Source: a virus. Taken from it: 27,174 bases of DNA. The notes under the pieces were generated by a model, which worked only from the letters and a program-made list of their open reading frames with translations, made no database searches and was not told where the DNA came from. This document shows positions 1,698 to 16,523 of this stretch, in pieces. Within the stretch, counting starts at the first letter, position 1; each line of letters opens with the position of its first letter. A program made the translations under genes and the position numbers. The DNA is taken from IMG/VR virus record IMGVR_UViG_3300046516_001406, positions 1 through 27,174 of that record. One strand, written 5' to 3'.

Positions 1698-1933
1698 GTG
1701 TCACCATGACGCTCGGGGCTGCGGCGCTCGGCAACGGGCAGGTCAGACTCTCATGGGCGTACACGCACCCCCCCACCGTCGACCTGTACGACAACGGCAA
1801 GGTGACAGGCGCGATCCCGATCGCATCGACGGTCGTGATCCTCACCGGACAGACACCCGGCAGCCACACGTACCAGTTGAAGGACGAGGCGACCGGCGGC
1901 GTCAGCACGAAAGCCACGGTGACGGTGACGTGA
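1694..1933 (+). CDS. Small Ig/fibronectin-III-like domain protein
   Basis: This 79-residue protein begins in an ATGA overlap with the portal stop, so the two are probably translationally coupled. The pattern of alternating hydrophobic residues, with VRLSWAY near the start, VDLYDNGKVTG in the middle, PGSHTYQLKDE and a closing series of Val/Thr, is that of a single FN3 or Ig-like beta-sandwich. Such domains are common on phage virions, where they bind weakly to surfaces or decorate other proteins. Here it stands alone rather than fused. There is no signal peptide or membrane segment. The fold assignment comes from pattern only and the function is inferred. Confidence 0.65.
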   Translation: MSVTMTLGAAALGNGQVRLSWAYTHPPTVDLYDNGKVTGAIPIASTVVILTGQTPGSHTYQLKDEATGGVSTKATVTVT

Positions 1934-3531
1934 GGTACGCAGCGACGGGCATGATCGCTTTGGCGATCGCCATCGGCGCCGTCGTCGCCACCGGAGGAGG
2001 CGGCGGAGGGGGAGGCGGCGGACAGTATTCGAGCCTGTGTTCGTCCAACATGTCGGCCGCGAACGTGTGGGTAAACCTCGCGGGCGCTGGCGGGTCCCCG
2101 TCACGGTCAGCGTCGCAGATTTCCTACAACGCCACGAACGCGTACGGAGACCTCGGATCTGCCTACTCGGCGGCGACAGCAGGAGACATGATCCGCGTCA
2201 TCTCGAGCTCCACGACGACCACTCAGGAGATCGACTATTCGAGCGGCAAGAACGCTACCGCAACGCAGACCTACATCTGCTCGTCGAACGGCGTGGTGCA
2301 GCTCCGCAGCCTTCTCTATGGCGACTGCAACACGCTGAACGCCCCCACCTACCTGACGATCGACGGCGGCACAAATCGCGACATCAAGGTCGGCGGGGCA
2401 GGTAGCTCTTATGCTGGCGGCGGGTTCTCTGCCTGCAACGGACAGCAGGACGTGGTCGCGAACATGCAGTTCTGTGTCGCTGAGAGCCTGACCGGCCCGT
2501 GTTTCGAGTGGCGCGAGGCATACGCCACGACGATCGCATGGAACATCATCGGCCCTGCCTGCTGCGGCTATAACGGCACGCACGGTTCGACGCCGTGGAA
2601 CATGCTGCTCGCGGTCTGCAACGACCCGCCGAACTGCACGCAGGGCGTCAACCCGTTCTCCGGATACGCGGACAACAACCTCATCGTCGACCACAACATC
2701 TTCCGCGGCAATAGCCGTTTCTGCGACGCGTGGGACGCAACGTGGGGAGGAACCTACGGGACCTGCTCCGCCAACAGCTTCGTCACTTGCCCGGACTCGA
2801 CGCAATGCCACGGCGACTGCATCCACTCGTGGGGAGAACGAGGATCGACTTTCTCGAACAACCAGTTTCTCCATTGCGCCACGCAGGCGTTTTTCCTAGA
2901 GGAGTCGAGCGGTGGCGCGAATGTGTCGGGCACCATTGAGAACAACTATTTCACCAAACTTCAGACGGAAGGGGCGCAGGCCGGGTTTGGGGGTGGCACC
3001 GGCAGCCACGGGATCTGGGGTGGCTGGTGTGCAGATTCGTGCTTCGGCCATCCGACCGGCACATGGAACATCCGTTACAACACGGCGATCGGGACCGCGG
3101 ACGTAGGTGTCGATCTCGGATGCAGCGTGTTCGGCATGCAATGTCACTACGGCACCAGCACTATCAACGTGGTCGGAAACACTGGGTTCGCCTTCTACGG
3201 CAATGACTCCAACACATGTACGGGCGGCAGTGAAGCCGGGAACGGCAACCCGAATACCCTCACCTACGCATACCACGCGAACGTGTGGACGAGCGACAGC
3301 GACCCGCACGTCAATAGCGGAATCCCCGATACGTGCGACGCGACCGACTCTGCCGTGACTAGGGCCACTGCGACGGGCTGGTACAACGACGCGAACCCGC
3401 CGACGCTGAACACGAGCGCGAACCCGCCGATCGGTTTCGTTGGCACGGGCGCCACCTACTGCACCGGCACCGATTACAACGGGCACGCCCGGTCCGGGTC
3501 GACGTGCAATGCGGGACTGCTGAACCAATGA
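1930..3531 (+). CDS. Cys-rich right-handed beta-helix protein with signal-peptide-like N-terminus
   Basis: I place the start at GTG 1930, in a GTGA overlap with the previous stop, giving 533 residues. This start supplies Arg2 ahead of a hydrophobic stretch (IALAIAIGAVVA, residues 9-20). The next in-frame ATG (1951) would leave the hydrophobic stretch without a positive charge. A run of ten glycines follows, then a beta-helix body with repeated Asn-rich turns such as NNLIVDHNIFRGN, TIENNYFTKL and INVVGNTGF. I count 24 cysteines, many in close pairs (CC, C-x5-C, C-x3-C), which suggests disulfides and folding outside the cytoplasm. Such a protein may be a polysaccharide-binding or degrading spike, or an exported host-surface modifier. 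The beta-helix call is fairly sure; export is inferred from the N-terminus and cysteine content. Confidence 0.65.
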   Translation: MRYAATGMIALAIAIGAVVATGGGGGGGGGGQYSSLCSSNMSAANVWVNLAGAGGSPSRSASQISYNATNAYGDLGSAYSAATAGDMIRVISSSTTTTQEIDYSSGKNATATQTYICSSNGVVQLRSLLYGDCNTLNAPTYLTIDGGTNRDIKVGGAGSSYAGGGFSACNGQQDVVANMQFCVAESLTGPCFEWREAYATTIAWNIIGPACCGYNGTHGSTPWNMLLAVCNDPPNCTQGVNPFSGYADNNLIVDHNIFRGNSRFCDAWDATWGGTYGTCSANSFVTCPDSTQCHGDCIHSWGERGSTFSNNQFLHCATQAFFLEESSGGANVSGTIENNYFTKLQTEGAQAGFGGGTGSHGIWGGWCADSCFGHPTGTWNIRYNTAIGTADVGVDLGCSVFGMQCHYGTSTINVVGNTGFAFYGNDSNTCTGGSEAGNGNPNTLTYAYHANVWTSDSDPHVNSGIPDTCDATDSAVTRATATGWYNDANPPTLNTSANPPIGFVGTGATYCTGTDYNGHARSGSTCNAGLLNQ

Positions 3532-3540
3532 GGTCGGTTA

Positions 3541-4317
3541 ATGGCGCTGACTGAGGTGGGGATCGCCCAGACGAACTCGGCCGTGGCGACCATCACCCTG
3601 TCCGGGGTGACGCTCGCGATCGGCGACGTAATCCTGCTCGGCTGCGGGGTAGGGGCAGGCGGCGGCTCGGGGACGTGCGCTGATTCTGGCGGCACCAACA
3701 CGTACACGCTCCTGAACGGATTCCTCGCGCACGGGTTACGCGCCGACCTGTTCGTGTGCAAGCTGGCTGCGGCGTTGTCCGGCGGGACGATCACGTACAC
3801 GCCGTCGTCTTCGAGCGACTGCTACCTATGGGTGGTGAAGGTCGCGAGCGGCAACACGGCCACCCCGACCGGACACAACGCGGATGGCAACCAGGCGGCG
3901 ACCGCGAACCCGGACACGGGGTCGATCACGTCAGGGGCTGGCGACACTGTCGTCACCTACTTCGTTTACAACCCGACGGGAGGCACGTTCACCGCCCCGA
4001 CCGGATACACGCAGAGCGGACTGACAGCGACGATCGAGATCGGCCCCGGCGACCTGAAAGCGGCGTGGGCATACCAGGACTCTGCCGCCGGAGGGACGAT
4101 CAACCCGACGGCCACGACCGGGTCTTCCGTTGCTTTGTCGGGCGGGTCGATCGCGTCAATGCCGGTGTCCGGTGGTGGCCTCGCCTTTGGACAGGACAAG
4201 GTCAAGACGAAGTTGCAGGCAGTCTCCCGGTCCGCTCTCTGGTGCCAGGCGTTCCGTCGCCACGGCAAGAGCGGCATCTTCCTCCCCGACGGGATCTGGA
4301 CTCCGCAAGCCGCGTGA
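3541..4317 (+). CDS. Beta-rich virion/adhesin-like protein, paralogous to the 12518 gene
   Basis: This 258-residue protein starts at ATG 3541, nine bases after the beta-helix gene. It is rich in Gly, Thr and Ser and reads as a jelly-roll-like sandwich: an opening strand pair (ATITLSGVTLAIGDVILLG), a DSGGTNTYTLLN turn, a TITYTPSSSSDCYLWVVKVASG strand pair, then GDTVVTYFVYN. The same order (repeated hydrophobic strands, DS-GNTWT turn, TITITW..., W-V-QEVTG) recurs in the 12518 gene, so the two are probably diverged relatives. The last 45 residues (from GLAFGQDKVK) look like a separate basic tail. I infer a structural or host-attachment role from its neighbours; no catalytic motif is visible. The stop overlaps the next start by GTGA. 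Confidence 0.6.
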   Translation: MALTEVGIAQTNSAVATITLSGVTLAIGDVILLGCGVGAGGGSGTCADSGGTNTYTLLNGFLAHGLRADLFVCKLAAALSGGTITYTPSSSSDCYLWVVKVASGNTATPTGHNADGNQAATANPDTGSITSGAGDTVVTYFVYNPTGGTFTAPTGYTQSGLTATIEIGPGDLKAAWAYQDSAAGGTINPTATTGSSVALSGGSIASMPVSGGGLAFGQDKVKTKLQAVSRSALWCQAFRRHGKSGIFLPDGIWTPQAA

Positions 4318-4583
4318 TCCCCCCGGGTCATCTCGAAGACGCGGGTTACGGAGAGGTGTTCTGCCATCCCGACACCGCCGCGGATCTACTCGAGGATGGA
4401 CTCACGGTCGACGACCGACCGGCGCAAGCGATTCTCGTCGGTGTCTGGGAGCACGCCCACCAGATCAAGATCAAGGTGCCATCCAGTCAGGACTGGTGGT
4501 GCTACGGCGAGCACGTCGTTCGCACTGCCGCCCGCAACCGCGAGATCCAGCGGCAGCAGGTAGTAGACTCGGTTCCTGCGTGA
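4314..4583 (+). CDS. Hypothetical 89-residue protein upstream of a glycosyltransferase
   Basis: The GTG start at 4314 lies in a GTGA overlap with the preceding gene, and the stop at 4581-4583 lies in another GTGA overlap with the following glycosyltransferase. This double coupling is the main reason to believe the start, since the frame is open further upstream. The product is acidic in its first half and mixed in its second half, with WEHAHQIKIKVP and DWWCYGEH as its most distinctive stretches. I do not recognise a family. It has no signal peptide or membrane segment. Its position suggests it works with, or on the substrate of, the glycosyltransferase, but that is only context. Confidence 0.6.
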   Translation: MIPPGHLEDAGYGEVFCHPDTAADLLEDGLTVDDRPAQAILVGVWEHAHQIKIKVPSSQDWWCYGEHVVRTAARNREIQRQQVVDSVPA

Positions 4584-5263
4584 CCCCCGGACCGGGAATG
4601 ATCGGAGTGCTGGCGCAAGACACGGCCCGCTTCAGCGTGTTCGCGTCCAGCATGACCAGCATCCAGGCTCCGCCCGGCACGTCGATCGAGTGGATGTTCG
4701 GGATGGACATCCCGGCCAGCCTCAATCAGCTCGTCGAGACGATGCTGCTGACGCCCGAGAACGAATGGCTCTGGCTGATGGGCGACGACCACGTCATCCC
4801 GGCCGAGACACTCATGCGCCTCCTCGCCCATGAGAAGGACGTCATCGTGCCGCTCTGCCTGATGCGGATGCCGCCGTACAAGCCGGTGATCTACGCGAGC
4901 GAAGAGGACGGGGTTCGCCAGTGCGTCGAACTCGACGACCATCCGAACGGAGGCCTGATCGAGGTGCATTCGGCAGGGAACGGGGGCATGGTGATCAGCC
5001 GCCTGGTGCTCGAGGTGATGGGGCCGCCGTGGTTCGAGTACGGGAAGGTCAGCCCGACGACGCTGGCCGAGGACGTGTACTTCTGCGACAAGGCACGCGA
5101 GCTCGGATTCGACATCTGGTGCGACCTTGACGTTCCGCTCGGCCATTGCACGACCGCGATCGTGTGGCCGCAGTTGCTCGACACTGGCTGGACGCACGGG
5201 TTCGTCATGGCCGGTGGATTCCAGATGTCTGTCCCGCGCGAGAGCCGGGTCGTGAGAGTGTGA
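4580..5263 (+). CDS. GT-A type glycosyltransferase, copy 1
   Basis: This 227-residue protein resembles a compact family-2-like nucleotide-sugar transferase. A hydrophobic strand ends in the DxD-like metal/nucleotide motif (WLWLMGDDHVIP, about residues 67-78). Further on are the acidic ED motif before a helix (AEDVYFCDKARELGF), as expected for the catalytic base, and a C-terminal GH (VPLGHCT) that may complete the metal site. Start GTG 4580 overlaps the previous stop by GTGA; ATG 4598 is the alternative. The region before the DxD is short compared with typical GT-A enzymes. It is clearly paralogous to the gene at 6359. In a phage structural region such enzymes usually glycosylate virion proteins, or less often DNA bases or host surface; the Ser/Thr-rich neighbours are plausible acceptors. 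The substrate is unknown. Confidence 0.75.
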   Translation: MTPGPGMIGVLAQDTARFSVFASSMTSIQAPPGTSIEWMFGMDIPASLNQLVETMLLTPENEWLWLMGDDHVIPAETLMRLLAHEKDVIVPLCLMRMPPYKPVIYASEEDGVRQCVELDDHPNGGLIEVHSAGNGGMVISRLVLEVMGPPWFEYGKVSPTTLAEDVYFCDKARELGFDIWCDLDVPLGHCTTAIVWPQLLDTGWTHGFVMAGGFQMSVPRESRVVRV

Positions 5264-5541
5264 AGGGCGCCGTCCTCCTCGGGTCCGTCGGTCGCGCCGC
5301 GCGCGGACTCGTCATGGTGCCGCGGCTACCGTCCGTGCCGAGTCTGCGCACCGGCAACCCGTGGACGGACGACGGCGACGTGTACGCCGAGTGCGGAGTA
5401 GAGGGTTGCAAGGCCGCGGGCGGCGACCCGTATCACGTCATGGGGTCGAGGCGGATGGTGCAGAAAGCGATGGCCCAGCACCACAGCTTCTACCACGTCG
5501 ACGAGACCCTCGTCGTCAAGTTGAATCAGCGCAAGCACTAG
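5260..5541 (+). CDS. Small Cys/His protein, possible zinc-binding
   Basis: GTG 5260 overlaps the glycosyltransferase stop by GTGA, giving 93 residues. An N-terminal stretch resembles a short amphipathic or weakly hydrophobic segment (AVLLGSVGRAARGLVMVPRL). The middle holds YAECGVEGCK (C-x4-C), followed about 12 residues later by a His and then by an HH...H cluster (AQHHSFYH), a spacing that could bind zinc. The C-terminus is basic. I do not recognise the family. Its coupling to the glycosyltransferase suggests a shared pathway. ATG 5314 (MVPRLPS) is a possible later start. Confidence 0.55.
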   Translation: MKGAVLLGSVGRAARGLVMVPRLPSVPSLRTGNPWTDDGDVYAECGVEGCKAAGGDPYHVMGSRRMVQKAMAQHHSFYHVDETLVVKLNQRKH

Positions 5542-5578
5542 CAGCCGATACACCCGCCCGACTTTCGTCAAGCACGCT

Positions 5579-5588
5579 AAGGGGGGTT
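5579..5588 (+). promoter_or_regulatory. Hexa-G Shine-Dalgarno motif (AAGGGGGGTT)
   Basis: The motif lies a single base upstream of ATG 5590 and matches those before the scaffold, major capsid and tail-tube genes. It can pair with the 16S 3' end if one G:U wobble is allowed, so it should act as a strong ribosome binding site. Confidence 0.7.
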
Positions 5589-5589
5589 C

Positions 5590-6102
5590 ATGGCTGCGAA
5601 GACCTACACGTTTCTGAATGGAGCGGTGCCTGGCGCAGCGGCAGCCGTTCCGATCGCCACCAACTCGGCGATTCGCACGATGCTGCAGCTTCAGGCATCC
5701 GCCAACGTCGCAATCCGCTTCACTGAGTTCTGGTTCGACTTCGACGGTTCGGCGGCCGCAACGCCGATCCGCTGCGAGCTGCTCGGGCACACGACGGCTC
5801 CGCAGACGACGCTGACGACGTACGCCAACGCGGACATCGCGCCCGCGAACGATCCGAACGCCGCGAACTGGGACGGAACACTCGCGTCGAACGCGTCGGG
5901 CTTCTCGTCGCAGACGACAGAGGTCGCGCCGACAGGCACGGTGCGCAACCTGAACACACAATTCGTTCCGCCCACGTCCGGCGTCTACATCCAGTACCCG
6001 CTCGGACGCGAGCCGGAGGTCAAGGTGGCGTTCTACGCTCGCATGCGCGTCACGGCGACCGCGTCGGTCAACTGCTACTGCGGCGGCTCCTTCGAGTGCT
6101 AG
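5590..6102 (+). CDS. Probable abundant virion protein, beta-rich (decoration or fiber subunit)
   Basis: This 170-residue protein follows a 48-base gap, one of the few real spacers in the window, and has a hexa-G ribosome binding site of the kind used by the capsid and tail-tube genes. That suggests many copies are made. The sequence alternates short strands with Asn/Thr/Ala-rich loops (FTEFWFDFDGSAA, IRCELLGHTT, VYIQYPLGREPEVKVAFYARM) and ends in a Cys-rich tip (NCYCGGSFEC). This is the look of a beta-sandwich surface protein. I do not recognise a named family. A capsid decoration, tail-fiber subunit or secreted role would all fit. Confidence 0.65.
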   Translation: MAAKTYTFLNGAVPGAAAAVPIATNSAIRTMLQLQASANVAIRFTEFWFDFDGSAAATPIRCELLGHTTAPQTTLTTYANADIAPANDPNAANWDGTLASNASGFSSQTTEVAPTGTVRNLNTQFVPPTSGVYIQYPLGREPEVKVAFYARMRVTATASVNCYCGGSFEC

Positions 6103-6131
6103 AAGGGCCTCGCGTTTCGCTTGTCGCAGCC

Positions 6132-6377
6132 ATGTCGGGAAGGCCGCTCGAGTACGACGAACTCGAACTCGAGCGGCCCCCGGCCCCAACGTCGATGCCG
6201 CCGCTATGTCTGCGGCGGCTTCAGATGCCGGAGCGGCATGACTGTTCGAGCAACTGCCCGGGCATGCAGCCAGATGGTTCCTGCCTGTGCACGATCGTGA
6301 TGAACGAGCGCGAGGCGGGAAGGGAGCCGATCTTCGAGATCGACAAGGATGGCTTCTGGTGCCTCGCTTCAACGTAG
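6132..6377 (+). CDS. Small Cys-containing protein upstream of second glycosyltransferase
   Basis: From ATG 6132 this is an 81-residue protein; GTG 6096, overlapping the previous gene, would add 12 residues. Neither start has a convincing ribosome binding site. The N-terminal half is acidic then proline-rich; the second half has DCSSNCPGMQPDGSCLC, a C-x3-C-x8-C-x-C cluster that could bind metal, followed by IFEIDKDGFWCL. The first part of the gene contains two strong inverted repeats, so the message may be structured and translation regulated or restricted. The stop lies 19 bases inside the next gene. Function unknown. Confidence 0.5.
   Translation: MSGRPLEYDELELERPPAPTSMPPLCLRRLQMPERHDCSSNCPGMQPDGSCLCTIVMNEREAGREPIFEIDKDGFWCLAST
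6142..6178 (+). repeat. Perfect 12-bp inverted repeat, 13-nt loop
   Basis: Left arm 6142-6153 (GGCCGCTCGAGT) is the exact reverse complement of right arm 6167-6178. As RNA it would fold into a strong GC-rich hairpin ten bases downstream of ATG 6132. No U-run follows, so it does not look like an intrinsic terminator. It could be an attenuator, a translation block or a processing site, or simply a by-product of the Leu-Glu codons. Confidence 0.7.
6197..6219 (+). repeat. Second inverted repeat, 8-bp stem, 7-nt loop
   Basis: GCCGCCGC at 6197-6204 pairs with GCGGCGGC at 6212-6219. It lies 18 bases after the 12-bp hairpin and inside the same small gene. Short GC-only stems arise easily in GC-rich DNA, so alone it means little; the tandem arrangement makes it worth recording. 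Confidence 0.5.
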
Positions 6378-7015
6378 ACGACCCGGGTACTGTCGCCGTC
6401 TGCGCCGAGGAAGCGGCCCGCTACACGCGGTTCCTGATCTCGGTGCAGGCGCTCGGCATGCCGCCCGGATCGCAGATCCGATGGCTCCTGTCGAGCGACA
6501 CGACCGCGAGTCGCAACAGCTCGTGCCGTGATCTCTACGGCGAATGGGTCTGGTTCGTCGACGACGACCACGCATTTCAGCCGGACATCCTGCGCAGACT
6601 CCTGACGCATGACGTCGACATCATCGCGCCGCTCGTTTTGCGCCGCCATCAGCCGTTCCTGCCAGTCGCCTGCCTCGACGACGAAGTGCTCGACCTTTCG
6701 CAGCATCCTGAAGAAGGCCTCCTCGAGGTGGACCACACTGGTTCGAGCGGGATGCTGATCCGCCGTCACGTCATCGAGGCGATGGAAGACCCGTGGTTCG
6801 AGCTCGGGAACGGCATCTCTGAGGACGTCAACTTTTGCCGGGCCGCGCGCGACGCTGGCTTCTCCATTCACATCGACCTCGGCTGCCGGATGGGCCATAT
6901 CACTCCGGCCGTCGTCTGGCCGTACTGGGACGAAAACCTCGGCCAGTGGGTGACGGGCTTCTCGATCGCCGACGGCTTCGAGATCGGAGTCGACCTCACT
7001 CCGCAGTTGACGTAG
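6359..7015 (+). CDS. GT-A type glycosyltransferase, copy 2
   Basis: This 218-residue protein is a clear paralog of the one at 4580. The two align from their first residues: DPGTVAVCAEEAARYTRF against GPGMIGVLAQDTARFSVF. This supports GTG 6359 as start, preceded by an AAGGA element. Shared landmarks are the metal motif (WVWFVDDDHAF), LRRLLTHDVDIIAPL, the P-E-E-G-L-L-E-V block, SSGMLIRR, PWFELG, SEDVNFCRAARDAGF and RMGHITPAVVWP. It probably uses a nucleotide sugar and a divalent metal. The acceptor may differ from that of copy 1, because the segments between motifs have diverged substantially. The giant repeat protein follows nine bases later and is a candidate acceptor, along with the Ser/Thr-rich virion proteins. 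Virion glycosylation is inferred from context. Confidence 0.78.
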   Translation: MPRFNVDDPGTVAVCAEEAARYTRFLISVQALGMPPGSQIRWLLSSDTTASRNSSCRDLYGEWVWFVDDDHAFQPDILRRLLTHDVDIIAPLVLRRHQPFLPVACLDDEVLDLSQHPEEGLLEVDHTGSSGMLIRRHVIEAMEDPWFELGNGISEDVNFCRAARDAGFSIHIDLGCRMGHITPAVVWPYWDENLGQWVTGFSIADGFEIGVDLTPQLT

Positions 7016-7023: not shown

Positions 7024-10000
7024 ATGGCCCGCGCAGGCCGTGGTCATCCGAATCAGAGCATCCGCACTGGCGTCGTCTTCCTGCAGGGCGGGGGGGCCGC
7101 TGGTGTAGGACGCGCGTCCGGTCTCGGGCCTGCAGCGCCAACCGTGATCCTGCCGCTGCCGACGCAGCGGATGCAGACGGTGCTCGTCCAGAACGTCGCG
7201 GTCTCCGAGCGGCGCCGGATGCCTCGCCGCTTCCCGTCGCAGATTTGGGAAGGGGACGAGATCCGCCAGACGAATCAGGGCGTGGCATTCACGTTTGGCG
7301 CGATCGCGAAGCAGCTTGGGCCGGAACCACCCATGATCATCTTGCCGTTGCCGACGCAGCCGATGATGACCGTGGTGGTCGCGTGTTGCGCCGTGCGCAC
7401 TAGGCTCGAGCAGAAGCGCCACATGCCGCTGCAGGGGTACGGATCGCAGTTGGTCAGAAAGACTGGGTCTCTGAACGAGTACGACAAGTCGGTCGAGTTC
7501 CAGTCGATGCGGATGCTCGGCCCGCGTCCGCCTCAGATCATTCTGCGGCTGCCGTCGCAGCAGATGATGACGATCGCGACCAACCTCGTAGCCCGAGCAT
7601 TCCGGTTGACGATGCCGAGACGGATCCCGCACTACTTCGTCCGAGCCGGGATCGCGGAGCCGCGCCTGACGATGCCCGATCGACGTCTCTACGTACAAGT
7701 GGACTTGCAGGCGGTCGCGACACGGATCGCCGCGAAGCTCCGCCAGCCGCACTCGAAGCTCCTCGTCATTCAGGTGCTGGCGCAGCCGCCGCCACCTGTC
7801 GTCACCGAGATGTCCGTCACGCTGGCCGGGCGCACGCGCGGCGACGCTCAGCGCAGAGCGCCGCATTCCCGCCGGATCGCGCCAGCGGTCTACAACATCC
7901 CGATCTTCTCGACGACGGTCTGGCTGGCCGCCAGATACCGGAGAGGCCACTGGGATCTTCCGCCGCCAACGTACATCAGCAACGTCACGATGCCGCAGTT
8001 CGTGCCGGTGCCGATCCCGCCGACGCCGCCGTTCGCACCGATCCTCGTCTCGACCGTTGCTCCTCGAGCGACGAGGGAGACGTACTGGCGCCGCTATGTA
8101 GAGCACGCCTACTTCGGCCCCATGGTCGTGTCGCCAGCGGTGCCGGTGCAGACGAGCCTCGAAACCACGCTTGCGCTCAGGCCGAGAACCGACGCACAAC
8201 GGCGCGCGCCGCACTATCGCCTCCAGGCTCCGACCGTTGTCGAGCCGTACCTGCGCGTCCCCGACCGGAGACTCGTACTCCAGGTCGACTACCAGTCCGT
8301 CGCCACGCGCTCGTCGATGGTGCGTCGACAGCCGTTCTCTCGCATCTATCCGCCAGCGACGCTCGAGGCGGCGTCCATACAAATCGCGGAACGCACGATC
8401 CGTGTCTCCCTCGTCGCAAGCCGGACGCGATCAGAAACCACGCGTCGAACACCGCATTTCCATCTCACCAGTCCATCCACGCTTGAGCCGTGGTCTGTCG
8501 CCCTCCAGCTACGCCTCATCGACACATGGCTCTCGGGCCGCACGCGCATCGAGATGCCGCGGCGAGCTCCGCATTCCCATCTCTCCTCTCCGACGGTCGT
8601 TACGGCAGCCGCCACGCTCACGCAGCAGCAGCAGACGATCATCGTCACCACAGTTTCTGTCTCGACGCGTCGCGCGTTGCCGCGCCGCTGTCGCGGCAAC
8701 TCGCGCCAGGGTCGACCCGTCGTTGTCTTCGCGCCCGGGCCGCCGCTCAATCCGCCCACCGTTCAGGTAACGCTCGCTGGTACCAACCGCTTGACGCGCG
8801 GAAGGCGTGCGTCCCACTACGCGCTCTCTCCGCCAGCGACCATCGCCGCCCCTCCGCAGGTTTTCTACGGCCCCGTCGTCACGCTCGCGGCCAGCCGCGC
8901 GAGACTCCTCAGCAGACGGACGGTCTCTCGCCTCGCCGCTCCCGCCACGCTCGAGCCGTGGTCTGTCGCGCTTCAGGAGCGACAGATTGGCGTCTGGGCA
9001 GCGGGACGCACCCGCATCGAGACCGTCCGGCGCGCGCCACACTCGCACCTGTATCAGGGGATCGCCGAGCCGCCGCTGCAAATGCCGGATCGGCGCCTGT
9101 ACGTCCAGGTGGACCTGCAGGCGATCTGGACGCGGACAACAATGGCGCGGCGCCGACCGACGTCGCGTCTCTCTCCGCCGCAAACCCTCCAGGTCTTCTC
9201 TGGCCCAGAGGTCGCATTCCCGCTCGGACGCACGCGCTCCGAGGCACAACGTCGAGCTCCGCATTCGCATCTGTCTCCGCCCGCGGTCGTAGCGGCGCCC
9301 ACGACACCATCCCAACAGCAGCAAACGCTACGGGTCGTCACAGTCGCCATCTCGACTCGCCGCGACCTTCCGCGCCGCTGCCGAGGAAACTCACGGCAGG
9401 GGCGCCCGGTTGTCGTCTTCGCCCCGGGTCCGCCGCTTGTTACGGAGACTCAGGTCTGGCTGTCCGGGCGCACGCGGGTAGAGGCGCAACGCCGGGCGCC
9501 GCACTATTCCCTGGAGCCGCCCGCAACGCTGGCGGCAGCGACGACGCCACCGACGCTCCAGCAGCAGACGATCCACGTCACGCTCGCGACGCAGAGCCTG
9601 ATCGCGTCACTCCGCCACCGCCAACCGCTCTCCGGGCTCGGGCCTCCGTTCGTCGTCAACCCGATCGCCTCGCTGCGCGCGCAGGTGATCAACGTCACGC
9701 TGACGGCGATCGGTCGCACAGACCGCGTCCGTCGCGAGCCGACATCCCGGCTCTACCCGCCAGCGGTTCAGGTATATCCGCCGCTCGACACCACCATCGC
9801 CGTCACGCTGGCTGGGCGCACACGGACGGAGACTGGACGGCGCGCACCGCACTCTCGTCTGTCGCCGCCACCGGTTGTTGAGCGAGCCATCCAGGCGCCA
9901 GACCGGCGTCTGAGCCTCCTCGTCGTCCTCGCCGGACGCACGCGCGTCGAACTGATCCGCCGGGCACCGCACTCACGTCTGCGGCCGGGAATCGTCGAGC

Positions 10001-11322
10001 CGTCTCTGCTTCCGTCAGATCCTCGCCTCGTCCTCCGCGTAGACACGCAGGCGCTCTGGACGCGCACGAGCATGGTGCGACGCCTTCCCCGTTCGCGTCT
10101 CGCCGGACCAGCGATCGGAGCTGTCGCACCGGCCGCGCCTGTCGACACCACCCTCCTCGTCGTTCTCGCTGGCCGCACCCGCGTCGAGGCCCAGAGACGT
10201 GCCCCGCACTATCTGCTTTCGGCTCCGAAAGTCGTCGAACCAGCGTTGCAACTCCCCGATCGACGCCTGACGATCCAGATCGACACGCAGGCGATTCCGA
10301 CCCGGCAGAGCATGCCCCGGAGGGCGCCGCACTACGACCTGTCGCCACCCGCAACACTCGAACCGGCGTCTGTCGCGCTGCGCAATAGAACCATCGACAC
10401 GCTCCTGAATGCGGTCCCGGACCGCACTTCCAGGCTCAGGCGCGGTCCACACTCGCATCTGTCGCCGCCCGCGACGCTCGAGCCGGAATCAGTAGAGCTC
10501 CGGGAGCAGACGATCACGGTCGTCCTCGCCGGACGCACGCGAGCCGAAGCGGTTCGCCGGGCACCGCACTACCGGCTCGCGCCTCCCGCCGTCGTCGGCC
10601 GACGCCTCCAGCCACCGGACCGACAACTCACGATTCCGACTCCGTTCGCTCCGGCGCCGAAGCAGCCGCGACGGACGCACTGGTCATACCCCGGCCCGAC
10701 GCCGACGCCCCCGGTCGTCACGACGATCCGCCTTGCGCTCTCCTACCGGACGCGCACTGAGACGCAGCGACGCGCGAGCCACTACACCCTCGGCGAGCCT
10801 ACGACGCTCCAGGTCTTCTCTGGGCCGCGTGTCACGCTCGTCAGCGTCCGCACCCGCGTCGAGGCGGTCCGCCGCGCTTCTCGTTACCGGCTCGCCCCGC
10901 CGACGAAGATTAACCCGCTCGCGACGCTCGCCCAACAGACGCTGCGCGTCGTCACCGTTGCCGTCAGGACGCGGGTCGAGTACCGGCGCCACGTCGTCCA
11001 GCACTTCCTGCAGCCGCCGACCGCGATCCTTCCGAAGGCGGACATCGAGCGGCAGACGATCAGGACGAAGTTCAAGATCGCCGTCTGGGGACGCCTCGAC
11101 CGCGTCCGGCGGATCCCGCACTACATCCTGTTCCAGCCGACCGTCGTCGTCCCGATCGCGCTCGTCAACTGGCGCCTGTCGCCCGACACGAACTGGATCT
11201 TCGAGGCGGCGGCTGCGAACGATTGGCTCGCTGATCCGGCTGCCGGTTGGGAGATGGAGGCCAGCGCGAACTGGCTGATCGAGGCTGACCCTGGATCGGG
11301 ATGGATCATCGGAAACCGATAG
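7024..11322 (+). CDS. Giant arginine-rich repeat protein (about 33 units of roughly 41 residues)
   Basis: ATG 7024 has an AGGGGA ribosome binding site and starts a 1432-residue protein. From about residue 58 to 1378 it is a tandem array of degenerate units. The common form is a short Val/Leu-rich strand, a Gly-Arg-Thr-Arg turn, then E-x-x-RRAPHS-x-L-x-PP-x-x-LEP, for example GRTRVEAQRRAPHY. I count about 33 cores in which RR or an equivalent sits at the same place. Some insertions recur (MPDRRLYVQVDLQA, TLQVFSGP, EPWSVALQ). The body is extremely basic; the last 51 residues are acidic and carry six evenly spaced Trp. There is no signal peptide or membrane segment. I do not recognise a family. 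A beta-repeat fiber, a protein binding DNA or anionic wall polymers, or an internal head protein are possible. Synonymous drift between repeat copies shows that this frame is coding. Confidence 0.85.
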   Translation: MARAGRGHPNQSIRTGVVFLQGGGAAGVGRASGLGPAAPTVILPLPTQRMQTVLVQNVAVSERRRMPRRFPSQIWEGDEIRQTNQGVAFTFGAIAKQLGPEPPMIILPLPTQPMMTVVVACCAVRTRLEQKRHMPLQGYGSQLVRKTGSLNEYDKSVEFQSMRMLGPRPPQIILRLPSQQMMTIATNLVARAFRLTMPRRIPHYFVRAGIAEPRLTMPDRRLYVQVDLQAVATRIAAKLRQPHSKLLVIQVLAQPPPPVVTEMSVTLAGRTRGDAQRRAPHSRRIAPAVYNIPIFSTTVWLAARYRRGHWDLPPPTYISNVTMPQFVPVPIPPTPPFAPILVSTVAPRATRETYWRRYVEHAYFGPMVVSPAVPVQTSLETTLALRPRTDAQRRAPHYRLQAPTVVEPYLRVPDRRLVLQVDYQSVATRSSMVRRQPFSRIYPPATLEAASIQIAERTIRVSLVASRTRSETTRRTPHFHLTSPSTLEPWSVALQLRLIDTWLSGRTRIEMPRRAPHSHLSSPTVVTAAATLTQQQQTIIVTTVSVSTRRALPRRCRGNSRQGRPVVVFAPGPPLNPPTVQVTLAGTNRLTRGRRASHYALSPPATIAAPPQVFYGPVVTLAASRARLLSRRTVSRLAAPATLEPWSVALQERQIGVWAAGRTRIETVRRAPHSHLYQGIAEPPLQMPDRRLYVQVDLQAIWTRTTMARRRPTSRLSPPQTLQVFSGPEVAFPLGRTRSEAQRRAPHSHLSPPAVVAAPTTPSQQQQTLRVVTVAISTRRDLPRRCRGNSRQGRPVVVFAPGPPLVTETQVWLSGRTRVEAQRRAPHYSLEPPATLAAATTPPTLQQQTIHVTLATQSLIASLRHRQPLSGLGPPFVVNPIASLRAQVINVTLTAIGRTDRVRREPTSRLYPPAVQVYPPLDTTIAVTLAGRTRTETGRRAPHSRLSPPPVVERAIQAPDRRLSLLVVLAGRTRVELIRRAPHSRLRPGIVEPSLLPSDPRLVLRVDTQALWTRTSMVRRLPRSRLAGPAIGAVAPAAPVDTTLLVVLAGRTRVEAQRRAPHYLLSAPKVVEPALQLPDRRLTIQIDTQAIPTRQSMPRRAPHYDLSPPATLEPASVALRNRTIDTLLNAVPDRTSRLRRGPHSHLSPPATLEPESVELREQTITVVLAGRTRAEAVRRAPHYRLAPPAVVGRRLQPPDRQLTIPTPFAPAPKQPRRTHWSYPGPTPTPPVVTTIRLALSYRTRTETQRRASHYTLGEPTTLQVFSGPRVTLVSVRTRVEAVRRASRYRLAPPTKINPLATLAQQTLRVVTVAVRTRVEYRRHVVQHFLQPPTAILPKADIERQTIRTKFKIAVWGRLDRVRRIPHYILFQPTVVVPIALVNWRLSPDTNWIFEAAAANDWLADPAAGWEMEASANWLIEADPGSGWIIGNR
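8677..8748 (+). repeat. 24-codon repeat, copy A
   Basis: This block starts LPRRCRGNSRQG and ends FAPGPPL. Its protein sequence is identical to copy B at 9367-9438, but 15 of the 24 codons differ, all synonymously. Confidence 0.85.
9367..9438 (+). repeat. 24-codon repeat, copy B
   Basis: Same 24 residues as copy A (8677-8748), encoded with 15 synonymous codon differences and no replacement. Upstream flanks are also similar (QQQQT and STRR), so the duplicated segment is longer than the identical core. Confidence 0.85.
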
Positions 11323-11329: not shown

Positions 11330-12517
11330 ATGCCGCTAATGGGAGTGCCAGCAGGAGGAGCGCCCGGACCACAAGGACCGCCGGGAGCCGACGGAACATC
11401 AGGTGTAGGAATCAACGTGAAAGCGTCTCCGTACAACGCCAAGGGCGACAACTCCACGGATGACAGCGCAGCATTTCAAGCCGCCATCGACGTAGCGACA
11501 GGGGCCACAAACGCGGAGGTCGACATTTTCGTCCCCGGCGGACGCTACATCATTAACTCGGCTCTAAACTTCGGGACGAAACGCGTGCGGTTCATCGGCG
11601 AAGGAGGGACGACCTACGGCGATCCACGACACGGATCCGTGCTGAAGACTGGCACGAACGGGATGACTCTGCTCAATATCGACGCAGGCGGCTCGCTCAA
11701 CCCTGCGGGACCAAAGTTCGAGAACCTCATGCTCTACGACGCTGCGCTGGGATCCACGCTCGTCAGCATCACGAACACGAACCGCGTGTTCTTCCGGGAC
11801 GTGATGTTCGCCGCCAACACGAATGCTGACGGCACAATCGGATTCGCATCGACATTCCCGGGCGGAGGCGACTGCAGTTGGCATGACTTCACGAACTGCA
11901 CCTACTACAACCTCACGTCAATGTTCGCACCAACGAAGTGTCTCGGCGTCGTAGTCACCGGCGGGTCGTTCAACGGTTGCGCCACAAACATGAACCTTCT
12001 AGGGAACGCAGCGCACTGGCGGGTAACCGACGTGAAGGCGGACGGCGGAGCGTTCATCTGCTACGGCGCCTGGAACACCTTCAAGGGAATCAAATGGGAG
12101 GTGCAAAGCAGCACCGCCGTGCAGGGATTCCTGATCGACTACGACGGGGCAACCACGAACAGCGGCCAGTACAACAGCGTATTCGGACTGACGATGAACG
12201 CGAACGGCGGGTCGAGCGTGAATGGCTTGAAGCTCTCCACGAACGCACTCTGCAAGTACAACGCCATCTACGGATTCAGCGCGGCAGGCTTCGCGGACGA
12301 GACGCACGGATGCGCGGTAGCGAACCAGAACGTCATCGAGTTCCTCAATCCGAACTCGAGCTACGGCATGCGTTACGACAATGGCATCGGCAACTTCGTC
12401 CAATCAGCATCCCCCGGCACAAGCGGCATCGCAGTCGGGTCGAAGTGGACGGACATCGACGACGGACAGTTCTACGTGTTTCAGTCTGGCGCTTGGCACG
12501 CCGTCACGGTGAGCTAA
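11330..12517 (+). CDS. Tailspike-like protein: collagen-like tip plus pectate-lyase-superfamily beta-helix
   Basis: ATG 11330 is preceded by TAGGAG and starts a 395-residue protein. Residues 8-24 are a short collagen-like Gly-x-y stretch (GGAPGPQGPPGADGTSG). Then comes the pectate-lyase-3 signature: 'YNAKGDNSTDDSAAFQAAID' and a typical IFVPGGRYII strand. The remainder has the Asn-rich turns and regular strands of a right-handed parallel beta-helix, ending in a small beta-rich tip (KWTDIDDGQFYVFQSGAWHAV) as in many phage fibers. Such proteins trimerise and bind or cleave surface polysaccharide. No catalytic residues can be assigned by eye. It lies far upstream of the usual fiber position after the tape measure. 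The next gene starts immediately after its TAA, in the same frame. Confidence 0.8.
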   Translation: MPLMGVPAGGAPGPQGPPGADGTSGVGINVKASPYNAKGDNSTDDSAAFQAAIDVATGATNAEVDIFVPGGRYIINSALNFGTKRVRFIGEGGTTYGDPRHGSVLKTGTNGMTLLNIDAGGSLNPAGPKFENLMLYDAALGSTLVSITNTNRVFFRDVMFAANTNADGTIGFASTFPGGGDCSWHDFTNCTYYNLTSMFAPTKCLGVVVTGGSFNGCATNMNLLGNAAHWRVTDVKADGGAFICYGAWNTFKGIKWEVQSSTAVQGFLIDYDGATTNSGQYNSVFGLTMNANGGSSVNGLKLSTNALCKYNAIYGFSAAGFADETHGCAVANQNVIEFLNPNSSYGMRYDNGIGNFVQSASPGTSGIAVGSKWTDIDDGQFYVFQSGAWHAVTVS

Positions 12518-13207
12518 GTGCCGATCGGCATTCCGACAGAACGCTACGCCCAGATCCTCTCGGGGCAGACTGGAACGACCATTCTGTCGCCAGCCACCAC
12601 AATCGCCGCAGGGACATGCGCGTTCGTGCTGGCGACGATCGGTGCGAACAAAACGATTAGCTCCGTGGTCGACTCAGTCGGGAACACATGGACTGTCGAC
12701 AAGACCATCAGCGACGGTACGCGCGCGGTCGGTTCCGCATCTGCAGAGATCGTCACGCAGATCACGTCTAGCGACACCATCACGATCACATGGTCTAACG
12801 CGACCTCGTCGCAAGCCCACATTTGGGTGCAGGAAGTCACCGGCCTCGTAACCTCATCTCCGTTCGACACGTTCAAGACCGGGACGGGGACGACCACCGA
12901 TCTGACAACCGGGCCCACCGCAACGCTGGCGCAGGCCAACGAGATCGCATTTGGGTGCTTCCGTTGCAATACATCGAACACCACATGGACGAAGGATGCG
13001 TCGTGGTCGAACCCAACGACGCCTACGCTCGACGCCTTCTCGGGCCTCGAGTACATCATCGTGGCGTCAACGACTGCCCTCACGGCTGCCCCCACGGGAC
13101 CCGCATCAACGATCAACTGGGCCGGGCTTGTCGTGACATACAAAGGGGGAGCTACTGGTCCGCAGATGATCCCCGGCCCGTCGCCCGTGCTTGGCCTCCA
13201 GGCGTAA
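12518..13207 (+). CDS. Thr-rich beta-sandwich virion/adhesin-like protein
   Basis: GTG 12518 follows the tailspike stop with no gap and in the same frame, giving 229 residues. The sequence is dominated by Thr, Ser, Ala and Val in alternating strands: GTCAFVLATIGANKT, a VDSVGNTWTVDKT turn, ITSSDTITITWSNATSS, HIWVQEVTGLV, then IAFGCFRCNTS and a closing NWAGLVVTYKGG strand. The plan resembles the protein at 3541. I infer an attachment or decoration protein made together with the tailspike. Many Ser/Thr make it a plausible acceptor for the two glycosyltransferases. There is no signal peptide. Confidence 0.6.
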   Translation: MPIGIPTERYAQILSGQTGTTILSPATTIAAGTCAFVLATIGANKTISSVVDSVGNTWTVDKTISDGTRAVGSASAEIVTQITSSDTITITWSNATSSQAHIWVQEVTGLVTSSPFDTFKTGTGTTTDLTTGPTATLAQANEIAFGCFRCNTSNTTWTKDASWSNPTTPTLDAFSGLEYIIVASTTALTAAPTGPASTINWAGLVVTYKGGATGPQMIPGPSPVLGLQA

Positions 13208-13224
13208 ACCGATAGGCGCAGACC

Positions 13225-13578
13225 GTGAGCGACGACGTCTCCTCCTGGTACGCGTCCGACCTTTCCACCGAGTTCATCAAGGTGAAGGTCACGGCCACCG
13301 TCAACGGCAACGCTGCCTACAACCCGACCGTCGACGTCGTCTACTTCGCCTTCGTGGCGCGAGAGGCCGAACCACAGAACAGCGACTGGGTGGTGGGTCG
13401 GTGGGAGACGGAGACGCTCGTCACGCCGAACGGCACCGTGCACATCTACCGGGCGCTCGGACTGATCGGGCCCACCGCGAAAGTGCTCGCCCGCGGCGTC
13501 TACGACGTGTACGTGAAGATCGTCGACAACCCGGAGATTCCGGTGCGGTACGTCGGCATCCTCGAGGTCGGCGCGTGA
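13225..13578 (+). CDS. Small beta-rich protein, hypothetical structural
   Basis: GTG 13225 starts a 117-residue protein that ends in a GTGA overlap with the protease gene. Its pattern (FIKVKVTATVNG, DVVYFAFVARE, TVHIYRALGLIG, VYDVYVKIVDNPEIPVRYVGILEVG) is a compact beta-sandwich. The sequence suggests a small virion domain that might cap or decorate. I know of no specific family. The real head module starts immediately after, so it may belong to that module rather than to the adhesin block. Confidence 0.6.
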   Translation: MSDDVSSWYASDLSTEFIKVKVTATVNGNAAYNPTVDVVYFAFVAREAEPQNSDWVVGRWETETLVTPNGTVHIYRALGLIGPTAKVLARGVYDVYVKIVDNPEIPVRYVGILEVGA

Positions 13579-14777
13579 CCGACATCCGTACGACTCTCTA
13601 TCTCGAAGGAGAAGAGGTCGAAAAGGTGTCGAGCAGAGTGGCAAAGGCGGCCGACTTGCAGATCCCACCCGAGTCACGCGCGGCGCTTGCGACATTCTGG
13701 CGCTCCCATCCCTCACTGCGGGCCCACTGCAAGAAGGAGTACGGCTTCGATCCGGTCCGCCAGCCCGACGACTACTGGAAGCCCGGATTGGCTGAGCCGG
13801 AACACGCCGACGTCCTTCGCGAAGCGCGCAATAAAGGGTTCACGCTCGACCTCGTGAAGCGCTGGCAACGCGAGGAGCTCGCGGAAGCACGGAAAGATGC
13901 CATCGAGAAGGCGACCAACATCGAGGCGCACCTGCGCATCGTCGGCGTGATGCACCACCCGTCCGGTGCCCGCGTCTACCGGCTCGCCACCCGCGACGAC
14001 CACTACGTCGGCCGCACGAACCCGACGAAGGCGCGTGCCTTGAAGAACGACGTCGTCAAGGTGACTGCGCGCCACGTGAAGCCGACCGACGCTGGTGATC
14101 TCGCCTGGACGAACCTCGAGGTGGCTGGTCTGAACACGGGGCGTCGCGCCGACAGCCGCCGAGACATTCTCGCGCGCATCGGCGGCGGAGACATCACGCC
14201 CGACATGGCGATGGTGAAAGACGACGCTCCGCCCGCAGGCGACGAAGGCACGACCGACCCGGACGCGGTCGCGAACGTTCCGATGGGGCCGACCGCGAAC
14301 TCGGTGCACGTCAACCGCCCGCTGAAGAACATCAGCCTCTTCTACGGACGCAAGAACAAGAAGGTCGGCGTCGTCAAGGCGTGGGGGATGGAGCAGCAGC
14401 TCGTCTACGGCGTCGTGCTAGAACCGGACGTGTTCGACCGCCAGGGCGACTACGTGCCGCGCGCACACGTAGAGAAAGCGGCGCATGGCTACCTGAAGAA
14501 GGCCCTGCGTGGCAGCAACCGAGTCACGAAGCTCCAGCATCGCGCGAACGCGTTCTTCCGGGACCAGCCGTCGATCGTCCCTGTCGAGTCGTTCATCGCC
14601 CCGGTCGACTTCACGTATCAGGGCAGCAACGAGCCGGTGAAGGCGGGAACGTGGGTGATCGTGCTGCACATCGAGGACCAGGACCTCTGGGATCAGGTAA
14701 CGGCGGGGCACTGGGATGGCATTTCGATCGGCGGCTCCGGCAAGCGCACGCCGATGGGTCCTGTCGGCCACCACTGA
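13575..14777 (+). CDS. XkdF-type prohead protease with long N-terminal domain
   Basis: GTG 13575 overlaps the previous stop by GTGA; the product has 400 residues. The C-terminal third (from about residue 265) matches the XkdF-like putative phage serine protease plan: LVYGVVLEPDVFDRQGDYV, a candidate catalytic His in KLQHRA (His322), the VESFIAPVDF strand, GTWVIVLHIED and a candidate nucleophile in GISIGG (Ser384). It would cleave scaffold and perhaps capsid N-arms during head maturation. The N-terminal 240 residues are helical and charged and of unknown role. Just before the protease domain, residues 244-257 (VHVNRPLKNISLFY) closely resemble residues 9-22 of the major capsid protein. Protease identity is from motif pattern; cleavage sites are not predicted. 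Confidence 0.75.
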   Translation: MTDIRTTLYLEGEEVEKVSSRVAKAADLQIPPESRAALATFWRSHPSLRAHCKKEYGFDPVRQPDDYWKPGLAEPEHADVLREARNKGFTLDLVKRWQREELAEARKDAIEKATNIEAHLRIVGVMHHPSGARVYRLATRDDHYVGRTNPTKARALKNDVVKVTARHVKPTDAGDLAWTNLEVAGLNTGRRADSRRDILARIGGGDITPDMAMVKDDAPPAGDEGTTDPDAVANVPMGPTANSVHVNRPLKNISLFYGRKNKKVGVVKAWGMEQQLVYGVVLEPDVFDRQGDYVPRAHVEKAAHGYLKKALRGSNRVTKLQHRANAFFRDQPSIVPVESFIAPVDFTYQGSNEPVKAGTWVIVLHIEDQDLWDQVTAGHWDGISIGGSGKRTPMGPVGHH

Positions 14778-14811: not shown

Positions 14812-16080
14812 ATGAGCCTCTTCCGTCACAACCGACTCGAAGATGTGGAGGGCCGTGAGTTGTCTCTCGTCAAATCCGGTGCGAATGGGCGCCGCATTCT
14901 GCTTCGCAAGGATGATGAGCCGCTCGAGTTCGCCGACATGCTGTCCGTCCCCTGGGAGCACGAGGGCGCGTTCAGCGACATGCTCCGCAAGGAGGGAGTC
15001 GACGAATCGACGATCGACGCAGCGATCGGCGGCTTCCGTCTCCTGAAAGCCGCCAGCGACGATCTCCCCGAGGACGTCCGCGTCGTCGTGGAGAAGCTCG
15101 GTTCGCAGATGTACCCGATCATCAACAAGCCGCTCAACAACATGGACGACGCGGACGCGGGAACCGAGGGGACGAACGACAACGGCGCGAACGACCTCGA
15201 CGACCCCGAGGACACGACGTCGATGGCGAAGGACGAGGACGACCCGGACGAGGACGTCGACGATGTCGCGAAGCGGAACTTCGACCGCGGCGTTGGGGGC
15301 GGCGTCGATCGCGACAAGCTTCCCGCGTCAGACTTCGCGGGTCCTAACCGGACGTACCCGATCGTCACGCAATCGGACGTCGGGGACGCGATGAAATTGT
15401 CAGGCAAGGCAGCGGATCCAGCAGCCGTCAAGGCGCGGATCGCTTCCATCGCCCGACGCAAAGGACTCACGCCTCCGGGCGGGAGTGACGCCAACGTCAA
15501 AAAGGGGGGCACGATGTCCGATGGGACACTGCCGGTTCCGATCAGGAAGGACGACGGGTCCTGGGACCTGTCCGGCGTCCCGGAGGAGAACCGGACCTTC
15601 CTCGAGACGGTCCTGAAGGCGCATGACGATGCCGCGGCTGCCAACACGGAGCTCAAGGCACAGATCGTCAAGGAGCGCGAGGACCTCGCGAAGGAGCGCA
15701 ACTTGCGCCGCGAGAGCGAGTTCATCCAGAAGGCCGAGGGCTACAAGCACTTGGTCGAGGATCCGAACGAGCTCGGGCCGGTGCTGAAGGAGATCGCTGA
15801 CGCCGTCTCCCCGGAGTCGTTCGCGACCCTGGAGAAGGCACTCTCGGCCGCCGAGGCGCGCGTCGAGACCGGCGATCTGTTCAAGGAGCTCGGCGCAGCG
15901 AACCTGCCCGGTGAAGAGTCCGGCGGGGACGCGATGGCGAAGCTCGAGAAGATGGCCGCAGACCTCGTCGAGAAGAGCGGCGACACGGAGATGACGGTCG
16001 AGAAGGCCTTCGCCCACGTCCTCGTCACTCCGAAGGGACGCGAGCTGTACTCCGCCTACCTGGCCGGGGGGGTGGCATAG
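14812..16080 (+). CDS. DUF6582-type head assembly protein containing in-frame scaffold
   Basis: I favour ATG 14812 (MSLFRHN), 34 bases after the protease stop, giving 422 residues; ATG 14716 inside the protease gene is an alternative. Residues 12-36 (EGRELSLVKSGANGRR...) are a motif often seen next to prohead proteases. Residues 110-155 are very acidic. Residues 167-219 contain KLPASDFAGPNRTYPI and ARIASIARRKG, the DUF6582 pattern. From residue 235 onward the sequence becomes a Lys/Glu/Ala-rich helical region, suited to a scaffold. A strong ribosome binding site sits before codon 235, so the long form should coexist with a short form. The next gene begins directly after its TAG stop in the same frame. 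Confidence 0.7.
   Translation: MSLFRHNRLEDVEGRELSLVKSGANGRRILLRKDDEPLEFADMLSVPWEHEGAFSDMLRKEGVDESTIDAAIGGFRLLKAASDDLPEDVRVVVEKLGSQMYPIINKPLNNMDDADAGTEGTNDNGANDLDDPEDTTSMAKDEDDPDEDVDDVAKRNFDRGVGGGVDRDKLPASDFAGPNRTYPIVTQSDVGDAMKLSGKAADPAAVKARIASIARRKGLTPPGGSDANVKKGGTMSDGTLPVPIRKDDGSWDLSGVPEENRTFLETVLKAHDDAAAANTELKAQIVKEREDLAKERNLRRESEFIQKAEGYKHLVEDPNELGPVLKEIADAVSPESFATLEKALSAAEARVETGDLFKELGAANLPGEESGGDAMAKLEKMAADLVEKSGDTEMTVEKAFAHVLVTPKGRELYSAYLAGGVA
15502..15509 (+). promoter_or_regulatory. Internal hexa-G Shine-Dalgarno for nested scaffold
   Basis: AAGGGGGG lies four bases before ATG 15514, inside the coding sequence of the longer protein where it encodes Lys-Gly-Gly. A match to the ribosome binding sites of the capsid and tail-tube genes at this place is unlikely to be accidental. 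Confidence 0.7.
15514..16080 (+). CDS. Nested capsid scaffold protein (internal start)
   Basis: ATG 15514 is in frame with the longer gene and carries one of the window's strongest ribosome binding sites (AAGGGGGG at 15502-15509). The product would have 188 residues: a short leader, a long charged coiled-coil-like helix (KEREDLAKERNLRRESEF), an EGYKHLVED...LGPVLKEIAD helix, an Ala/Glu helix and a C-terminal segment ending ELYSAYLAGGVA. Composition and position (after protease, before decoration and capsid) fit a scaffold. The arrangement mirrors lambda, where Nu3 is translated from an internal start of gene C. I infer that this short form is made in excess over the long form. Confidence 0.7.
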   Translation: MSDGTLPVPIRKDDGSWDLSGVPEENRTFLETVLKAHDDAAAANTELKAQIVKEREDLAKERNLRRESEFIQKAEGYKHLVEDPNELGPVLKEIADAVSPESFATLEKALSAAEARVETGDLFKELGAANLPGEESGGDAMAKLEKMAADLVEKSGDTEMTVEKAFAHVLVTPKGRELYSAYLAGGVA

Positions 16081-16491
16081 ATGGCAGTCGAGAACAACGT
16101 CGGGATGGACTGGTCGCTTGCGGCCAACGTCGATCTCAGCGCGAAGCAGTTCTTCTTCGTCCTGTGCAACTCCACCAGCAAGGCCGACCTCTGCACAGGA
16201 GCGGCATCGGAGGGATTCTTCGGAGTCCTACAGAACGACCCGACGCTCGGCCAGGCCGCCGAGATCCGCTACGGCGGCATCTCGAAGGTCGTCTGCGGCG
16301 GGGCTTTCAACCCGGGTGACTACGTCACCTCGGACTCGGCTGGGAAGGCGATCAAGTACACGAAGGCGACCGTGTTCACGGGTACGCCGTACGTGGTCTC
16401 CGGCTCGTCGGTCTATGGCCTCGCGCTCAGCGCGGGCGTCAACGGCCAGCGCGCATCCATCGTCGTGCAGCCCATGGGGCTCCACAACTAA
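16081..16491 (+). CDS. Capsid decoration protein (DUF2190-like)
   Basis: ATG 16081 abuts the upstream TAG with no gap; a run of seven G (16066-16072) can serve as ribosome binding site. The 136-residue product follows the DUF2190/capsid-cement plan: an initial strand, GFFGVLQNDPTLGQAAEIRYGG, FNPGDYVTSDSAGKAIKYTKA, VYGLALSAGVNGQRASIVVQPMG. In many phages such proteins sit on the capsid surface and stabilise the expanded head. Its place directly before the major capsid gene is typical. Confidence 0.8.
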   Translation: MAVENNVGMDWSLAANVDLSAKQFFFVLCNSTSKADLCTGAASEGFFGVLQNDPTLGQAAEIRYGGISKVVCGGAFNPGDYVTSDSAGKAIKYTKATVFTGTPYVVSGSSVYGLALSAGVNGQRASIVVQPMGLHN

Positions 16492-16505
16492 CCGGCACAC
16501 AGGGA

Positions 16506-16516
16506 AAGGGGGGTTA
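16506..16516 (+). promoter_or_regulatory. Hexa-G Shine-Dalgarno of major capsid gene (AAGGGGGGTTA)
   Basis: The motif lies seven bases before ATG 16524 within a 32-base spacer. It shares eleven identical bases with the site before the tail-tube gene (20100-20110). Confidence 0.75.
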
Positions 16517-16523
16517 ACAAGAC

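Follow-up and report, generated by a model that had tools for sequence, protein, structure and literature searches.

Phages swap host-recognition and decoration genes. Judged by major capsid and portal proteins, the nearest isolates to the virus described here are Arthrobacter phages such as Kovu and Salgado and, by major capsid, Roseobacter phage RDJL Phi 1; the major capsid proteins of these phages are 39-42% identical to its own, and in the case of the Arthrobacter phages the portal proteins are 41-44% identical. The head module is comparable in all three. The window, that is, the whole stretch of 27,174 nucleotides that was analyzed (IMG/VR record IMGVR_UViG_3300046516_001406), is a virus record whose head and tail module is of the siphovirus type and comprises genes for portal (phrog_113), serine protease (PF14550), major capsid (phrog_1005), neck, tail, and tape measure proteins. 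It differs from Kovu, Salgado, and RDJL Phi 1 in encoding a large polycationic repeat protein, which tblastn does not find in these three phages. According to their annotation Kovu, Salgado, ValentiniPuff, and RDJL Phi 1 possess other genes in the interval between portal and capsid, those of the Arthrobacter phages being a protease, an RNA ligase, and nucleases. With phage tailspikes and tail fibers the repeat protein shares a place in a structural operon and a possible surface role. It is unlike them in being strongly basic, in lying beside head and connector genes, in having no recognized β-helix and no PDB match, and in giving no profile match to the known tail fiber and tailspike families of PHROGs and Pfam. 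The comparisons presented below suggest that this protein probably marks an undescribed, exchangeable accessory module of the virus particle.

The repeat gene and its product

The repeat gene begins with ATG and remains open throughout its length, encoding 1432 residues (Table 1). GC-rich DNA read in the wrong frame typically translates as an Arg/Pro-rich protein, and the ORF might thus be an out-of-frame or noncoding artifact merely resembling one. This is countered by three results. Its frame ranks first among the six in codon-preference score; 13 aligned RTR...RRAPH cores give pS 0.68 and pN 0.26, a ratio of 0.38, which indicates protein-level constraint (purifying selection) in this frame; and a member of the same family occurs in a phage of 41% GC. 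The chance of an artifact is negligible, and 7024-11322 is the correct reading frame. The GC content by codon position (0.69/0.56/0.80; GC3 0.795) resembles that of the remaining window genes.

The product has a pI of 11.8 and a net charge of +120, with 13.1% Arg and 11.5% Pro. An earlier sequence-only reading had described it as an extremely basic repeat protein of 1432 residues, one of the two largest encoded in the window, lying between a glycosyltransferase and a tailspike. All of this is borne out: only the tape measure protein (1455 aa) is larger, and the flanking genes have the profile matches given in Table 1. The upstream glycosyltransferase gene stops 8 nt before the repeat gene.

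Table 1. Coordinates of the repeat gene, its internal features, and neighboring genes in the window.
Feature	Position	Strand	Evidence
Glycosyltransferase-like paralogue 1, start approximate, within ORF 4130-5263	4556..5263	+	phrog_1574/12406
170-aa companion protein ("KTYxVLNG")	5590..6102	+	homologue in every contig with the repeat protein
Glycosyltransferase family 2-like paralogue 2, start approximate	6368..7015	+	PF13641, E 4e-10
Polycationic repeat protein, 1432 aa, about 31-33 units	7024..11322	+	ORF, codon statistics, unit HMMs
N-terminal long units, 65-75 aa, motif LGPxxPxIILPLPTQxMxT; also in L036	7123..7581	+	direct repeat family D6; P0002 alignment
Main array of ~40-aa units: strand TIxVxLAG, RTRxExxRRAPH[SY]xL, linker xPPxVVE	8158..11166	+	
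Long-range internal duplication D3, 2 x 212 nt, 72% identical, 690 nt apart, contains RRCRGNSRQGRPVVVFAPGPPL	8536..9437	+	
C-terminal Trp-rich acidic tail, NWRLSPDTNWIFEA...NWLIEADPGSGWIIGNR, outside the array	11167..11319	+	sequence
Tailspike-like protein with pectate-lyase-like segment, directly 3′ of the repeat gene	11330..12517	+	phrog_2234, E 1.5e-7; PF12708, E 2e-10
117-aa protein (GVYDVYVKIVDNPEIPV)	13225..13578	+	homologue of the gene right after the L181 repeat gene; 34%, E 2e-17

Unit HMMs recognize 30-33 degenerate copies in the window protein, mostly spaced 36-42 aa apart, in keeping with the roughly 33 units of about 41 residues reported previously. Autocorrelation of the protein peaks at lags of 40, 80, 120, and 156, exceeding all 50 shuffles. 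An HMM built only from the units of P0002, a relative described below, scores 238.9 bits on the window protein, the highest value among 200 shuffles being 5.8. This places the array far beyond chance, in a test that is not fully independent since these units were originally gathered with a profile seeded on the window protein. At the DNA level, the units have diverged to 60-85% identity. The unit proposed from sequence, with a Val/Leu strand, an Arg-Thr-Arg turn, and an RRAPHS core, holds for the main array but not for the long N-terminal units, which occupy the first ~200 residues, nor for the final ~50 residues (51), which are nonrepetitive and differ from the short tails of the relatives.

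Relatives in uncultivated phages

A search of viral metagenomes had been suggested along with the first description of the protein. Iterated pattern searches of the uncultivated phage contigs of IMG/VR located seven relatives: P0002 (L036), P0003 (L050), L067, L095, L121, L193/G024, and L215. These range from roughly 800 to 1340 aa, and the family including the window protein from 795 to 1432 aa.

The closest relative, P0002 (IMGVR_UViG_3300047160_020647; L036/L181), is a protein of 1147 aa and pI 12.0 that matches the window protein at E 5e-34. Like the latter it contains both RTRxExxRRAPH units and long LGPRPPQII units, and its phage has a capsid of the same family, the major capsid proteins being 67% identical. 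It is unlike the window protein in that most of its units are of the type VRTRPRPTTRxLAPPTVV, and in its C-terminal tail; the cassette lies between the major capsid and neck genes, whereas that of the window lies between the portal and protease genes. Since P0002 carries both RRAPH-type and RTRPRPTT units, it bridges the window protein and the other relatives, direct similarity being weak between the window protein and units of the L095 type (an HMM built exclusively from four other relatives gives 20.0 bits, the best shuffle 7.5).

The phages of L050, L067, L095, L121, L193, and L215 resemble that of the window in their long, basic, PP-containing arrays, the 170-aa companion, and glycosyltransferases. 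Their units are different, with about 30-33 aa of the form LxPPTVV...FFGPxVxLAYSRRGxPKS, L095 having the most regular ones, and their capsids have no detectable kinship to that of the window; one of the genomes is 41% GC. The pattern RRAPHS-x-L-x-PP, which had been taken as the signature of the protein, is the core of the window array but only this phage's variant. The motif of the wider family is roughly L-x-P-P-T-V-V-x(3-6)-[FY]-x-G-P-x-V-x-L-x-x-S-R-R-G-x-P-K-S, and the commoner unit type has the consensus LRPPTVVAAAPVFRGPRVTLAPSRRGRPKSK.

The six members measured (the window protein and five relatives) have pI values of 11.2-12.0 and net charges of +78 to +145. The highest charge belongs to L121, the phage of which is 41% GC; it is achieved partly through Lys (6.3%), which argues that basicity is selected and is no by-product of GC content. 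Defined by a unit array with L-x-P-P-x-V-V and a basic turn, a pI above 11, and a length of about 800-1430 aa, the new polycationic PP-repeat family comprises these six proteins and two more recognized by HMM and sequence.

The lengths of the repeat and tape measure proteins (1432/1455, 1338/848, 1097/1758, and 795/952 aa) do not track each other, and a role as length ruler was rejected.

A very basic ORF of only some 78-113 codons immediately precedes or touches the repeat gene in at least three of the relatives (L181:9985-10254, L184:8207-8443, L185:1403-1678, and L215 near 15405). That of L181 is one gene removed upstream, and its LRPPVVV motifs resemble a mini-array. The nonarray tails of L050, L067, L095, L193/G024, L215, and L121 differ yet fall into recurring types, with either a Cys pair CYGDVVGFDFAPEVCG and Gly/Ser repeats ending in REGC, or SRES repeats. 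The tails of L050 and G024 are 68% identical, which is above most of the array.

Searches of known families and isolates

The protein had been assigned to no known family, and the searches agree. The window protein has zero matches in PHROGs, none in NCBIfam, and in Pfam a single subthreshold match to an unrelated family; its relatives have no matches in PHROGs or Pfam. In the PDB the best E value is 0.029 with the single sequence and 0.0074 with a profile, the latter to 36 residues of a fimbrial fusion protein, a match that fails as a domain. Five members used as tblastn queries against 50,697 phage records returned nothing, nor did two copies of the 170-aa protein match isolate phages. The BLAST low-complexity filter may mask weak matches to repeats; the 170-aa protein is nonrepetitive. 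Plasmids queried with one member gave no match, and one pattern scan of bacterial genomes gave three matches, in which the unit HMMs detected nothing, so that neither prophage nor host was found. Literature searches yielded no account of the protein or its module. Neither the family, which is new to the libraries searched, nor the module has a name there or an isolate; the locus belongs to a known broad kind, that of phage accessory structural modules.

A shared module at differing sites

All eight family members are encoded in runs of structural genes. A homologue of the 170-aa protein is present in 8/8 contigs with the repeat gene (the window, G019-G024, and L215), the copies being 57-81% identical, even between genomes of 41% and 69% GC. 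The window and G019 have capsid and tail proteins without BLAST match to those of G020 and G023, yet the 170-aa protein is conserved. More distant homologues (26-35%) occur in other contigs with no repeat gene within the DNA fetched (at most 10 kb on each side). No contig examined lacks glycosyltransferase-like paralogues in the neighborhood of the repeat gene; each phage has between one and about five, and paralogue 1 of the window is 29-41% identical to those of the relatives.

The gene 3′ of the repeat gene encodes an Ig-like protein or a head-tail adaptor in G020, G021, G022, G023, and G024; the assignments for G022 and G024 come partly from reading the sequence, and phrog_783 was assigned for the G020 homologue. 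In G024, G021, and G022 the repeat stop codon abuts or overlaps this next gene, from which we surmise that the repeat protein is probably coexpressed with structural proteins. The order in G022 is glycosyltransferase, 170-aa protein, small basic ORF, repeat gene, and Ig-like gene, and from the small basic ORF onward the genes overlap or touch. In G019 a small DNPEIPV protein follows; the gene for its window homologue (34%) is located 1.9 kb downstream. A long ORF with a TTG start at 13191-14777 covers this part of the window; its start is misplaced, the likely genes being 13225-13578 and a protease gene from near 13575.

The site of the module varies, being the capsid-neck interval in G019 and that from the major tail protein gene to the head-tail adaptor in G020, G023, and G024. 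That the content is conserved while the site changes from phage to phage speaks for a functional unit that is exchanged horizontally. The occurrence of the repeat protein with constant companions in at least eight uncultured viruses, and in none of the cultured phages searched, suggests that it is probably the marker of an accessory module. We consider it a serious possibility, though one short of probable, that glycosyltransferases, 170-aa protein, polycationic repeat protein, and Ig-like proteins, a set absent from the cultured phages searched, form a horizontally exchanged virion-decoration module among phages with unrelated capsids, its central fiber representing a new class of polymer-binding or glycosylated coat. 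A conserved multigene module around a giant Arg/Lys-Pro repeat protein, shared by phages with unrelated capsids, would constitute a novel type of virion accessory, one whose repeat protein is absent from more than 50,000 phage records.

Fold and possible function

AlphaFold2 modeling of five units of L095/L184 gave a mean pLDDT of 36.6 and a pTM of 0.29 and placed short strands at TVI and VTLA. For four units of the window protein, the values were 43.0 and 0.13. The alignments had seven rows in both cases, and the low confidence could be explained by a shallow alignment or by an obligate oligomer. Relative to the Uversky boundary, hydropathy and charge values fall on the folded side, and hydrophobic residues make up 29-34%; plain disorder is therefore not the obvious reading. 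The lack of a confident fold would suit an intracellular, nonvirion factor, such as an assembly chaperone or a polyanion-binding host-takeover protein, lying by chance in a structural operon. This appears very doubtful: the gene is found among structural genes in eight contigs and at least three different capsid and tail contexts, and at the border of the head-tail adaptor gene.

The best explanation, which we advance tentatively from sequence and synteny, is that the protein may be a structural accessory component of the virion, a flexible or fibrous surface fiber or coat near the head or neck. The placement of the gene, its tight linkage with structural genes, and its companions favor such a fiber or coat, as does the varying length of the protein; small probable surface proteins and Ig-like proteins accompany the repeat gene in several contigs, and a length spread of 795-1432 aa is expected of a fiber or coat and less of a rigid capsid part. 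The conserved positive charge, kept in all six members measured, favors polyanion binding, and the unit cores are under purifying selection. Against a surface fiber stand the pLDDT values of 37 and 43, the lack of homology to known fibers in the searches, and the consideration that a polycationic fiber could adhere nonspecifically to debris. Of the surface β-repeat fiber proposed at the outset, the surface role is thus favored by the synteny recurring in eight contigs, while the β-repeat fold is not confirmed by AlphaFold2.

The charge equally suits DNA binding inside the head, and the main rival is an internal, DNA-associated virion protein, the Arg/Lys-Pro clusters of which would neutralize or organize the packaged DNA, or which would be ejected with it. 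The net charges of the six members and the location among head and connector genes are consistent with this, and the SRRGRPKS motifs of the relatives resemble AT-hook cores by eye. The AT-hook core P-R-G-R-P is absent from the window protein, which has no RGRP but only QGRP, twice; the relatives have RGRP or RGKP in some of their units. A charge of +120 is small compared with the roughly 140,000 phosphates of a ~71.7 kb genome unless hundreds of copies are present, and the companions are glycosyltransferases and probable surface genes instead of other internal proteins. An internal role is rather unlikely.

The same glycosyltransferases raise the possibility of a glycan carrier, in which these co-encoded enzymes would decorate Ser/Thr/Tyr (or Arg) positions within the repeats and the glycosylated coat would mask the phage or alter adsorption. 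Their presence near every repeat gene examined is in its favor, and one paper offers a precedent in proposing that actinobacteriophage virions are glycosylated by phage-encoded glycosyltransferases (PMC11256854). The acceptor could instead be the 170-aa or Ig-like proteins, and a carrier has no need of strongly conserved positive charge. We regard this role as fairly improbable; it is compatible with a surface position.

As a surface fiber or coat, the protein might function as follows. In each unit of 30-41 residues, a cationic turn (RTRxExxRRAPHS or SRRGxPKS) would link a short strand to a second strand or to a polyproline segment (LxPPTVV), such that the array would present some 20-35 Arg/Lys clusters. 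These may bind anionic cell-surface polymers, or the repeats may carry sugars added by the neighboring enzymes; the co-inherited glycosyltransferases probably modify the repeat protein or the small companion proteins. The nonrepetitive C-terminal tail would serve as anchor. The synthesizable unit of 30-41 aa and the 170-aa marker protein are targets for learning how these phages adhere to their hosts or conceal themselves there.

Genome context

A sister contig of 63,064 bp (IMGVR_UViG_3300046678_000454) is 99-100% identical to window positions 1-6162 and 15477-27174. Because it connects both ends of the window, the genome is about 71.7 kb with a circular map. The sister contig is interrupted exactly at the start of the glycosyltransferase and repeat region. 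Contig L001 begins within the repeat gene. Seven contigs that each encode a close homologue of the 170-aa protein terminate 0.06-4.1 kb downstream of it, which fits a region difficult to assemble because of repeats or variability. Window positions 14833-15476 are diverged (88%) from the sister contig or unmatched. Between the portal and glycosyltransferase genes, positions 1753-3531 encode a secreted-looking, Cys-rich and Gly-rich protein of 592 aa with no family match, which is possibly a parallel β-helix.
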